IMG/VR virus record: IMGVR_UViG_3300023210_000171
Span: 1-27,657 of that record
Direction: 5' to 3' (one strand)
Source: a virus
DNA length: 27,657 nt
Shown: positions 3,713-27,377 of the stretch, piece by piece
Layout: each line of letters opens with the position of its first letter
Position numbering within the stretch: the stretch's first letter is position 1
The notes under the pieces: generated by a model
Told to the model about the DNA's origin: nothing
What the model saw: the letters and a program-made list of their open reading frames with translations, nothing else
Databases searched by the model: none
Translations under genes and position numbers: made by a program

Positions 3713-3734
3713 AATTTTAGAAAACAAAAAGATC

Positions 3735-4049
3735 ATGAAAAATTTACAAGAAATAAAAAAAGGAGATTCTTTTACTGGAGAAAATGCAGTAGGTAACAAA
3801 GTAACTAGAACATGTATTGGTTTCGTAGTATATACTCAATACCAGAGTGAAAATACACTGTTAGATGACCAACTTTTAAATAAAGAAGGTGAATTATTTT
3901 CTCACATGTCTGATTGGGAAGAAAATCACAAAAAAGCACGGTACGTAGCAAAAGACAAAGAGACTGCCTTGAAGTTTATAAAAAGAAATCAGAAAAAACA
4001 TGAGTTTCAGTTGAATTTTAGACCTTACTTTAGTAATAGGTTTCATTAA
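3735..4049 (+). CDS. Unknown 104-aa early protein
   Basis: Starts MKNLQEIKKGDSFTGENAVG and has a lysine-rich C-terminal half ending in NFRPYFSNRFH. The N-terminal 35 residues could form small beta strands around KKGDSF, but I cannot assign a family. It has its own early promoter with leader hairpin and is followed by 4134 without a new promoter, so the two probably share a transcript. Confidence 0.7.
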   Translation: MKNLQEIKKGDSFTGENAVGNKVTRTCIGFVVYTQYQSENTLLDDQLLNKEGELFSHMSDWEENHKKARYVAKDKETALKFIKRNQKKHEFQLNFRPYFSNRFH

Positions 4050-5879: not shown

Positions 5880-5928
5880 TTGCATATAACGTATTGCCCC
5901 ATCAAAAAAAAAATAACTAAAAAAGATT

Positions 5929-9884: not shown

Positions 9885-9917
9885 CTCCCTATTTTTAATA
9901 CTTTTTTCGTATCTTTG
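9885..9917 (+). promoter_or_regulatory. C-rich phage promoter P1 (small terminase)
   Basis: CTCCCT (9885-9890), 19 nt spacer, then TATCTTTG (9910-9917). The same arrangement recurs at 14853, 17969, 22866-22897 (minus strand) and 25502. The host-like TTG at -33 is replaced by the C-rich block. Confidence 0.65.
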
Positions 9918-13335: not shown

Positions 13336-13366
13336 TTGCTTTTGTGGATATTTTTTTGTATATTTG
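13336..13366 (+). promoter_or_regulatory. Leaderless host-like promoter, rightward
   Basis: TTG (13336-13338), 20 nt, TATATTTG (13359-13366), 4 nt, ATG at 13371. Mirror image of the leftward promoter in both spacing values. Confidence 0.75.
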
Positions 13367-13370
13367 AATT

Positions 13371-13643
13371 ATGTTTGATACTAACAATTACAATAACATA
13401 ATAGCTGAACTGTTAGACAGTGGAGCTGATGTAGATAGAGATGATGAAGAAGCCTTCAAAAAAGAGCTTTCTGGTAGGATTAGAGAGGTTTTATTAGAAG
13501 ATAGGCAAAATGAAGGTGAAGTTATGGAACTTTTTATAAAGAGGATTATGAGAGCTTTCACCTTTGCTCAGTTATATAATATTTTAAAGGATGACGAAGA
13601 TAAATTAGTAGAAAAATATAAAGAAGATTATGAACGACTTTGA
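13371..13643 (+). CDS. Unknown acidic 90-aa protein
   Basis: A helical, strongly acidic protein (ELLDSGADVDRDDEEAFKKE near the N-terminus, KDDEDKLVEKYKEDYERL at the C-terminus). No family is recognised. It starts right at a host-like promoter and overlaps the thymidylate synthase start by 14 nt, so it is the leading gene of that operon. Confidence 0.7.
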   Translation: MFDTNNYNNIIAELLDSGADVDRDDEEAFKKELSGRIREVLLEDRQNEGEVMELFIKRIMRAFTFAQLYNILKDDEDKLVEKYKEDYERL

Positions 13644-19597: not shown

Positions 19598-20143
19598 ATG
19601 AAGTTTTTTTTTAACATGTTTGGTTTTGATGGGATGCAAGATTTTGTACTATCAACCTTTGGAGTATTCTTAGCTAAGAACTCGCTACTCGTAAGCCTTA
19701 CCATAGGCGTTTTAGCTGGCAACATTGAACGATTTGTAGGTTTAGAGCCTGTTGTGTTCTTAGCTGTTATTTGTTTGTTTGTGCTGGAGATTATTACAGG
19801 AATAACAGCATCAGTGTTCTTTAAAAAAGAGCCTTTCGATAAAGAAAAGTTAGGAAGAAGCATTGTAAAGTTAGTAGCTTACCCAGTTTTACTATCTTTA
19901 ATTCACAACTTCCAGCAATTTGATATTGGAAGTATTGATGTTTTTGGATTCGGCATTGACTTTTTCAGTATCGCTCATACAGCTTTGGTATTTTTAGTTA
20001 TATTGCAAGTTTTAATATCTTTCTTAGAGAATTTAACTATTATGGGCTTCAAAGAACTTGAATTGATCACAAAGATATTCAAAGTAAAGTTAAATATTTT
20101 CACTAAGAAAGTTGATAAGGAAAAAGAAAATTCATATAAATGA
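19598..20143 (+). CDS. Holin, Phage_holin_4 type
   Basis: A membrane protein of 181 residues resembling the Phage_holin_4 (TcdE/UtxA-like) family. The signature is the second membrane segment ending LEIITGITASVFFKKE, then a basic loop KEKLGRSIVKLVAYPVLL. There are about four hydrophobic segments (near 26-40, 51-70, 88-100 and 125-142). The positively charged C-terminus (KVKLNIFTKKVDKEKEN) would face the cytoplasm. Holins open the inner membrane at the end of infection. It starts 1 nt after the portal stop and its TGA overlaps the next start (ATGA). No endolysin is recognisable nearby. Confidence 0.75.
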   Translation: MKFFFNMFGFDGMQDFVLSTFGVFLAKNSLLVSLTIGVLAGNIERFVGLEPVVFLAVICLFVLEIITGITASVFFKKEPFDKEKLGRSIVKLVAYPVLLSLIHNFQQFDIGSIDVFGFGIDFFSIAHTALVFLVILQVLISFLENLTIMGFKELELITKIFKVKLNIFTKKVDKEKENSYK

Positions 20144-24616: not shown

Positions 24617-25495
24617 ATGAGAAAGTTAACAACAGAAGAATTTATAAATAAAGCAAAGAAGATTAAGCCTCATTATGATTATAGTAATGTAAAATACACA
24701 GGTAGTCAAACAAAAGTAAAAATTACTTGTGACAAGGGGCATGAATTTCGCATTGAACCCAGAATGCTCATCTCTGGTCAAGGTTGTGCTAAGTGTAGTG
24801 TTTTTTATCAACACTCCACTGAACAGTTCATAGAGAAAGCGAAGAATATCAAACCTAATTATGATTACAGCAAAGTAGACTATACCAATAGCAAAACAAA
24901 AGTAAAAATTATTTGCGATAAGGGACATGAATTTGAAATTAGACCACACAATCTTTTTTCTGGTCAAATATGCTCAAAGCGCAGTAGGAAACCTCGACAT
25001 ACAACAGAAGAGTGGATTTTAGAAGCAAAGAAGATCAAACCTAATTATGATTATAACAAAGTAGACTATATTAATAGCAAAACAAAAGTAAAAATTATTT
25101 GTAACAAGGGTCATGAATTTAGAATTAGACCTACAAGTTTAACCTCTGGGTCGGGTTGCGCTAAGTGTGCGTCAAGCAAAGGAGAAGAAGCAATAAGAGA
25201 GTTTCTTAAAAGTAATATTGTTGAGTTCTCAGAGCAAAAAAGGTTCAAAGGTTGTAAAAATAAGAAAAGCCTTCCTTTTGACTTTTACCTCCCTCATCTT
25301 AAAACCTGCATAGAGTTTGATGGAGAACAACATTTCAGACCTATCGGTTATTTTGGAGGGATTGAAGCTTTTGAACAAAATAAGATTAATGACTTTATAA
25401 AAGATACTTATTGCATCAACAATAATATCAATCTTATCCGTATTGCTTATAACGAGGATATAATTAACAAACTTAAGGAAAGCCTTAATTTATAG
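24617..25495 (+). CDS. VSR-like homing endonuclease with zinc-ribbon repeats
   Basis: A 292-residue protein in two parts. Residues 1-185 are three repeats with a 62-residue period, each with the core TKVKI(T/I)C(D/N)KGHEF and CAKC: ligands Cys38/His42/Cys57/Cys60 in repeat 1 and Cys162/His166/Cys181/Cys184 in repeat 3. In repeat 2 the last Cys is Arg122 (CSKR), so that ribbon is degenerate. Residues 187-292 form a PD-(D/E)XK or VSR-like nuclease: KGEEAIREFL, Asp222 in LPFDFYLP, then CIEFDGEQHF with Glu233, and LIRIAYNED at the end. This plan matches free-standing phage homing endonucleases of the I-Bth0305I/VSR-like type. It has its own promoter and lies beside the tail fibre and the inverted repeat, as expected for a mobile insert. 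Confidence 0.75.
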   Translation: MRKLTTEEFINKAKKIKPHYDYSNVKYTGSQTKVKITCDKGHEFRIEPRMLISGQGCAKCSVFYQHSTEQFIEKAKNIKPNYDYSKVDYTNSKTKVKIICDKGHEFEIRPHNLFSGQICSKRSRKPRHTTEEWILEAKKIKPNYDYNKVDYINSKTKVKIICNKGHEFRIRPTSLTSGSGCAKCASSKGEEAIREFLKSNIVEFSEQKRFKGCKNKKSLPFDFYLPHLKTCIEFDGEQHFRPIGYFGGIEAFEQNKINDFIKDTYCINNNINLIRIAYNEDIINKLKESLNL

Positions 25496-25501
25496 GAAGA
25501 G

Positions 25502-25534
25502 CCCCCTATTTTATATTTATATTTTGTATCTTTG
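25502..25534 (+). promoter_or_regulatory. C-rich phage promoter P4 (tail fibre)
   Basis: CCCCCT (25502-25507), 19 nt, TATCTTTG (25527-25534), ATG at 25556. A frame starting at TTG 25532 would begin inside the -7 box and is rejected. Confidence 0.65.
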
Positions 25535-25555: not shown

Positions 25556-25804
25556 ATGATTTTAAAAGCTGGAGATGATTCGTTCTTCTTTATTGATAAT
25601 GAACCTTACCAACGAGGTGATTACAGGTTCATATTTAAAAGAGAGAACCCAAACCTTGTATCTCTATTTGACAAAGGAGAGAGCGTAACTAAATTTGGAT
25701 TTAGAAACATTTCTGATTGGCAAGGGCAAGTAGACTCCAACCCTCCATTTACATTTGCTAGCAAAGCAGATATGCAATCCTTTTATAAGGACTTTTTTTT
25801 TTAA
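25556..25804 (+). CDS. Tail fibre protein, N-terminal part (ends at T10 tract)
   Basis: An 82-residue frame, MILKAGDDSFFFIDNEPYQR onward, ending KDFFF and a TAA formed by the T10 run at 25793-25802. Without one T the frame would continue directly into the downstream fibre as FFFKSGSGGEIVDNS. It is therefore probably the N-terminal (virion-attachment) part of a fibre of 606 residues. It has a C-rich late promoter. If no shift occurs, only this short product is made. Confidence 0.7.
   Translation: MILKAGDDSFFFIDNEPYQRGDYRFIFKRENPNLVSLFDKGESVTKFGFRNISDWQGQVDSNPPFTFASKADMQSFYKDFFF
25793..25802 (+). promoter_or_regulatory. T10 slippage tract in the tail fibre gene
   Basis: Ten T in a row at the junction of the two fibre frames. 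Runs of nine or more A/T are established sites of transcriptional slippage and of replication slippage. Loss of one T, or gain of two, restores the full frame. Confidence 0.7.
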
Positions 25805-27377
25805 AAGTGGAAGTGGTGGTGAGATAGTTGATAATTCAATACCTCTTTCTAAGTTAGAACAGATATTTGGAGAATCTTTGCTTGGCAACTACGACCCTGT
25901 GACGGGGAATGTTAAAGTAGTAAACGTTGGTGATGGATTAAAGTTTGTAGGTGATACTTTAGAAACTGATATTACTATTGACGGTTGGGATGGAGAGGTT
26001 AATACCCGAAATGATTTACCAATTACAGTAGGTGACCCTCCTGTTGGTTCTGTTTACTTAGTGTTACAACCTATCACTGAGTCAATAATGGGCATTCCTT
26101 ATAAAACTTATCAGTCTGGTTTGTATTTGAGAAGTTTTAACACGGGAGCTTTAACAGACTGGGAAAGGATGAATGTTAAAACTCAATTCACTGATGCTGA
26201 GTTTAAGGTTGTTGATGCTGACAATACTTCAAGACAAGCTAAGTTTGATGTTGGAGGCGTTTCAAGTGGGACTGTAAGAAGTTTAACGGTACAAGATAAG
26301 GACTTAACTATTGCTGGTTTAGATGATATTACTACTATTGGTGCTGAGAACATTGGAACTGAGGGTGAGGAACTATTTAAGCAGATAGCTAACAAACTTA
26401 TTCAGATTAAAAAGATAGTTGGTAAAGGTGACGTTAATATCACAAGTAACGTTGCTAATGATACAGTTGAAATAGAATTAACTGTTCCCGCTACTCAATG
26501 GGGTGGTATTCAAGGAACTTTGTCAGACCAAACAGATTTACAAAATGCACTTGACACTAAGATTGAAGGTGCTACTAATATTGGAACTGAGGGTATTGGT
26601 GTATTCAAGCAAGTTACCAACAAGATTAATGAACTTAAAAAGATTGTTGGTAAAGGTGATGTAAATGTGACTGAGAATGTTGCTAATGATACTATTGAAA
26701 TTGAGTTAACCATTCCTACTGTAACTATAAGCTGGGGTGACATTCAAGGAACTTTATCAAATCAAACAGATCTCCAAAATGCACTTGATGCTAAGATTGA
26801 TGGTGCTGAGAACATTGGAACTGAGGGTGAGGAACTATTTAAGCAGATAGCTAACAAACTTATTCAGATTAAAAAGATAGTTGGTAAAGGTGACGTTAAT
26901 ATCACAAGTAACGTTGCTAATGATACAGTTGAAATAGAATTAAATGTTCCCGCTACTACAAAAGTTGTTTCTTATAGTAGTATAGCTATAAACAATTTTA
27001 ACAGTAATGCTTTAACTAATGTTTCTAATATGCAAGTTACGATAGCAAAGATTGGAGATTATTCTTTTGTATCAACTATTAATTGTAGTAATGATAATAA
27101 TGAAGAAGTTGAAGTTACTTTAGCAATTACTCCAATATCTTCTCGAAACATCACTTTAATAGATGGCACTGTTCAAGCTTTAACGGCTGGTGTTCAATTT
27201 TCTTTTGTAAAACAATTACAGTTTGACACGCAAAAGAAAAACCAAGACCAAACTTTACAAAGAGATTTTATAATCAATGGACTGCTTGTTGGCGATCTTA
27301 TAGATGTTCAACTTAATACAAGAGGAGATAATGTAGATATTGATAATAGATGGCTAACAGGTTTTTCAGTTTCATAA
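25803..27377 (+). CDS. Tail fibre protein, main part (no start codon of its own)
   Basis: A 524-residue continuation that begins in the T10 tract. It has no ATG before ESIMG (about residue 95), so it needs the upstream part for a start. The sequence is fibre-like: VGDPPVGSVYLVLQ and GLYLRSFNTGALTDWERM, then repeats that include the widely found tail-fibre motif WGxIQGTLSxQTDLQNALDxK (twice; the first carries one extra G), between three copies of an (E/T)NIGTEG...KKIVGKGDVN block. The first and third of these blocks are almost identical in DNA. The C-terminus (from about 400) is a beta-rich tip with SSIAINNFNSN, likely the receptor-binding end. It acts on the host surface at adsorption. Confidence 0.8.
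   Translation, partial: KSGSGGEIVDNSIPLSKLEQIFGESLLGNYDPVTGNVKVVNVGDGLKFVGDTLETDITIDGWDGEVNTRNDLPITVGDPPVGSVYLVLQPITESIMGIPYKTYQSGLYLRSFNTGALTDWERMNVKTQFTDAEFKVVDADNTSRQAKFDVGGVSSGTVRSLTVQDKDLTIAGLDDITTIGAENIGTEGEELFKQIANKLIQIKKIVGKGDVNITSNVANDTVEIELTVPATQWGGIQGTLSDQTDLQNALDTKIEGATNIGTEGIGVFKQVTNKINELKKIVGKGDVNVTENVANDTIEIELTIPTVTISWGDIQGTLSNQTDLQNALDAKIDGAENIGTEGEELFKQIANKLIQIKKIVGKGDVNITSNVANDTVEIELNVPATTKVVSYSSIAINNFNSNALTNVSNMQVTIAKIGDYSFVSTINCSNDNNEEVEVTLAITPISSRNITLIDGTVQALTAGVQFSFVKQLQFDTQKKNQDQTLQRDFIINGLLVGDLIDVQLNTRGDNVDIDNRWLTGFSVS
26339..26495 (+). repeat. 157-bp direct repeat in fibre gene, copy 1
   Basis: Differs from 26801-26957 by one base (C at 26482, A at 26944). The copies start 462 bp (154 codons) apart, so the reading frame is kept. 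Confidence 0.9.
26801..26957 (+). repeat. 157-bp direct repeat in fibre gene, copy 2
   Basis: Second near-identical copy. A divergent copy of the same block lies between the two, from about 26572. Confidence 0.9.

Follow-up and report, generated by a model that had tools for sequence, protein, structure and literature searches.

A virion fibre gene interrupted at a T10 tract: probably an ordinary homopolymer indel and not a dedicated switch

In a virus record of 27,657 bases, analysed here over its whole length (the window), a gene for a virion fibre is, on our best reading, divided into two reading frames at a run of ten T residues. We consider, with a probability of roughly 0.6, that this frame break represents a miscount in assembly or a sporadic slipped variant in the sampled phage population and not a dedicated switch, and of these two forms of indel an assembly miscount is our first choice. 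An earlier note on this DNA had named a sequencing error as the main alternative to its own proposal of slippage or phase variation at the tract. For that proposal no direct support emerged: a second tract length was not seen, close relatives were not found in the collections searched and the relatives detected are tract-free at the site.

The window has an AT content of 69% and carries terminase, portal and holin genes. The source virus probably infects Flavobacteria (Flavobacteriia), probably marine ones. Positions 1-1222 contain short tandem repeats and lack convincing genes.

The T10 tract and its reading frames

The tract occupies positions 25793..25802 of the plus strand, where it was located by inspection and with a run finder; it is preceded by AAGGAC and followed by AAAAGTGG. 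The first frame (25556..25804, plus strand) starts with an ATG at 25556 and extends over 82 codons to a TAA at 25802-25804, the T of which is the final base of the tract. It encodes a putative N-terminal virion-attachment domain with a predicted terminal helix. The second frame (25803..27377, plus strand) comprises 524 codons from 25803 to a stop that ends at 27377 and, as judged from the open reading frame listing and homology, encodes a KSGSGG Gly/Ser linker, a conserved fibre module, three shaft repeats and a C-terminal domain. It is offset by +1 relative to the first frame and is stop-free back to 25734; at the composition of the window, 524 stop-free triplets would arise by chance with a probability of about 6e-19. 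An intact reading requires a net loss of one base, while the other shifted frame meets a stop after seven codons. The arrangement of the two frames described in the earlier note is thus borne out by the open reading frame listing and the codon score, as is its observation that the sequence resumes sensibly with one T fewer, given the +1 offset and a coding signal that continues in the second frame.

A Markov estimate yields 0.85 expected T10 runs for a window of this composition, and the occurrence of one somewhere is unsurprising; the unusual feature is its position inside a gene. The only other 10-base run, an A10 at 5904-5913, is intergenic, lying 15 bases 5' of an ATG, and provides a natural stutter control. 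Among open reading frames of at least 100 amino acids in the window, a single further A/T run of at least nine bases occurs (T9, 19604-19612) and its frame is intact. Several runs of 7-9 bases within window genes are also intact, and no further frame breaks were found elsewhere in the window.

One gene or two

Scoring of codon usage, with the remaining genes of the window as training set, favours the first frame until about 25760-25775; from about 25790-25800 onwards it is the second frame that scores better. The optimum for the frame switch is flat, extending over 25772-25802, and the T10 tract falls within this interval as its sole long homopolymer. The coding signal therefore changes frame less than about 30 bases from the tract and continues immediately after it. 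All of the gene starts checked in the window (30 of 30) are ATG codons, mostly with A-rich leaders. The first ATG of the second frame occurs at 26088, deep in the conserved module, and a TTG at 25755, which lacks an A-rich leader, is the sole ATG, GTG or TTG upstream of the linker. The claim in the earlier note that the fibre frame lacks a start codon consequently holds for ATG but not strictly, since this upstream TTG exists. Given the frame statistics, the one-frame relatives described below and the lack of a good start in the second frame, the two pieces are best read as one interrupted gene, in agreement with the homopolymer-split fibre gene proposed earlier.

The alternative that these are two overlapping genes, one encoding an 82-residue protein and the other a fibre starting at TTG 25755 or at another weak start near the linker, draws on a layout that does occur in the wider family, since in loci L007/L008 and L012 the homologous fibre has a start codon of its own, TTG or ATG, at the Gly-linker and follows a separate small gene. 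Independent starts of this kind had been named earlier as evidence that would speak against a split gene, and these loci supply them, but those carrying the three fibres L003/L009, L004/L010 and L011 do not, each being encoded in one frame. Moreover, codon usage upstream of about 25775 fits the first frame and not the second, the first piece is, by eye, unlike the small upstream genes of L007/L008 and L012, and a TTG start without an A-rich leader would stand against the uniform use of ATG among the 30 starts checked in the window. We regard two genes as the most improbable of the explanations considered here.

The first piece

Searches of viral_contigs and INPHARED proteins revealed no homologues of the first piece, and neither hhalign nor profile HMM comparison yielded significant homology to the fibre N-termini. 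Against a profile of 12 fibre N-termini it scored 0.7 bits, while shuffled sequences reached 7.9. It agrees with the N-terminal domain of the family only in position, in a PFT motif and in a terminal helix, the latter taken from a model too poor to serve in a fold search: the single-sequence prediction, of low confidence (pLDDT 49), ends in a helix. The model of the family N-terminal domain also places a helix before its linker. As homologues are not detectable, it is position and frame statistics that suggest the first piece to be the attachment domain of the fibre.

The fibre family

The conserved module lies at about 25977-26357, carries the motif DGxV..DLP..GSxYLV..YQxGLYI..LSDW..NVK and shares about 45-54% identity (E 1e-28 to 2e-36) with fibres of the uncultured phages IMGVR_UViG_3300033153_001082 (L003/L009), 3300037245_001188 (L004/L010) and 3300011013_000096 (L011). 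PHROG matches of the second piece are to tail and virion-structural proteins. Repeat analysis delineated three direct shaft repeats of about 230 bases each at 26271..26950 (plus strand). Within these, 26339-26481 and 26801-26943 are identical over 143 bases and are a likely site of recombination that would alter shaft length, or of mis-assembly.

The earlier note had suggested a search for an intact fusion in related phages, and three were found: in L003/L009, L004/L010 and L011 one and the same frame encodes the module together with a Gly/Ser linker and, ahead of it, a domain of about 90 residues. Twelve N-terminal domains were aligned, and those fetched run unbroken into the linker or shaft; they follow the pattern MAxKFEI...PFT..F..F.R.NLGF ahead of the Gly/Ser linker. 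The single open frame that L003, L004 and L011 have in common is absent from this record, where it breaks at T10. While the fibre under study shares with those of L003, L004 and L011 a module situated behind a Gly/Ser linker, the latter differ in being encoded in one frame and in showing no significant match to the first piece. None of these relatives, which are not close, carries a T tract at the domain/linker junction.

Assignment of the product as a virion fibre is safe. The more specific terms tail fibre and host recognition, used in the earlier note, go beyond what could be established: the related L003 fibre gene lies between those of the major capsid protein and the tape measure (a 918-residue open reading frame that we read as such), and one related fibre, P0004, has a head-decoration match at its C-terminus. 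Both a head fibre and a tail fibre would fit. With the family N-terminal domain as query, a fold search matched two entries of the viral library significantly, the stronger match being to a protein of Tenacibaculum phage Gundel_1 (E 1e-6), and none in the PDB; the Tenacibaculum phage match would agree with Flavobacteriia as hosts of the fibre family's phages.

Upstream elements and neighbouring genes

The gene at 25556 starts 21 bases after a promoter-like element, TTTTGTATCTTTG (25522..25534, plus strand). Copies, exact or with one base changed, immediately precede two other genes, those at 13371 and 18022, the latter encoding the portal protein. The recurring form TTTTGTAT[AC]TTTG lies at 13354, 17989 and 25522 on the plus strand and, with one mismatch, at 9905, in each case shortly ahead of a gene. 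The approximately 50 bases upstream of the fibre gene match those upstream of the portal gene at 76%. TTTTGTATCTTTG is judged promoter-like from its TAnnTTTG, the Bacteroidota -7 motif.

A leader, TTTTAGAAAACAAAAAGATC, is identical at 1971-1993 and 3727-3749, immediately 5' of the ATG codons of two genes, and related A-rich leaders precede several others. Directly upstream of the fibre gene, at 24617-25495, lies a gene for a DUF4379/HNH-type homing endonuclease (phrog_559, E 4e-81) whose DNA is similar to segments found in Staphylococcus phages and in phages of Klebsiella and Escherichia that have genomes larger than 350 kb.

Origin of the frame break

The preferred explanation envisages one fibre gene encoding an N-terminal attachment domain, a Gly/Ser linker, a repeat shaft and a C-terminal domain, in which a homopolymer-length indel at the domain/linker boundary would interrupt the frame, the intact form presumably predominating in nature. 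It is favoured by the coding signal that continues past the tract, by tract-free relatives in one frame and by the ATG-only starts of the window. In addition, the promoter-like element immediately ahead of the interrupted gene also precedes the portal gene, and A/T runs of at least nine bases are lacking in open reading frames of at least 100 amino acids in the related loci fetched. Spurious homopolymer frame-shifts have been documented in 454 phage assemblies (PMC3670811; PMC4546147). Against it stand the lack of a homologue of the first piece and the absence of any other broken gene. Broad homopolymer error across the window was ruled out, with a single break found and the runs of 7-9 bases intact; it is therefore improbable that the data set is prone to homopolymer errors in general, but a lone error at the longest coding tract is still compatible with the data.

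It is also conceivable, if unlikely, that an out-of-frame T10 is retained by the phage where the attachment domain meets the linker in its only visible fibre gene, either for polymerase slippage to set the ratio of short domain to full fibre in each virion or for replication slippage to switch the fibre between virions. Mononucleotide tracts of about this length slip during replication, and a P-site UUU, such as that preceding the UAA here, can shift its pairing forward by one base ahead of a stop codon. Programmed recoding, whether transcriptional or by a +1 ribosomal shift at UUU-U, would produce a fixed fraction of full-length fibre, the rest being short attachment domain; we consider it rather doubtful. 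The tract is suitably placed at the domain/linker boundary and exceeds the threshold of seven T residues from which E. coli RNA polymerase slips; in reporters, a one-base deletion at T8 brought back about 10% of the signal (PMC6260861). One-base loss is thus physically plausible, and it would occur as a by-product even of an accidental tract. The E. coli figures are a guide only, since this phage is transcribed by the polymerase of another host. Homopolymer transcript insertions outnumber deletions genome-wide in E. coli and Buchnera (PMC5574713), whereas a net loss is required here. The downstream RNA folds no better than shuffled sequences (z 0.29), offering no structure as a frameshift stimulator.

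Several precedents bear on recoding. An A11 tract restores Citrobacter rodentium tssM1 at about 20%, both products being needed (PMC4256274), and in this gene and Shigella mxiE the frame likewise breaks near a long A/T tract, with the rest of the coding sequence following it; however, slippage was shown experimentally for both, for tssM1 on an A tract, whereas here it is proposed from sequence. For the Campylobacter phage methyltransferase CPt10_0091, slippage was also proposed at a homopolymer frameshift, but there the poly-A frameshift itself was confirmed and the product is not a virion fibre (PMC2853527). Listeria phage PSA has +1 ribosomal frameshifts in its capsid and tail genes, in the tail gene before a stop (PMC5009743); the latter resembles the present case in its direction, in affecting a virion gene and in the position of the shift codon before a stop, but it employs a proline codon and lacks a T tract, and its capsid gene has a pseudoknot.

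Phase variation, in which replication slippage would toggle the fibre between virions, seems less probable again. A gene for host recognition would make sense as the site of slippage at so long a tract, but an OFF virion without a needed fibre could go no further if the phage has no second one, and none is visible in the window, which is a fragment. Furthermore, no phage-fibre precedent was found in the literature searched, and viral_contigs yielded no near-identical junction with another tract length, leaving a single sequence of this phage. The same collection contained no close relatives of the fibre, terminase or portal, only distant relatives of the fibre; a search of genome_contigs for relatives gave none, neither piece matched INPHARED proteins and a junction read-through query produced a chance-level match only (E 4). 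With no close relative, tract-free distant ones and no RNA structure, conservation, on which the case for a programme usually rests, is not demonstrable. If T10 is genuine, host polymerase slippage should still generate some full-length fibre, perhaps at about 10% or more, together with the 82-residue fragment; such leakage is expected with or without selection and is consequently not evidence of a switch.

Implications

If the tract is both genuine and selected, a mononucleotide run would here control the virion fibre of a phage, an arrangement of which no example was found in the literature searched. More probably the case is a caution that breaks at long homopolymers in single metagenome contigs need read checks before they are labelled as switches. 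The intact relatives delimit a family of fibres whose attachment domain can be recognised.
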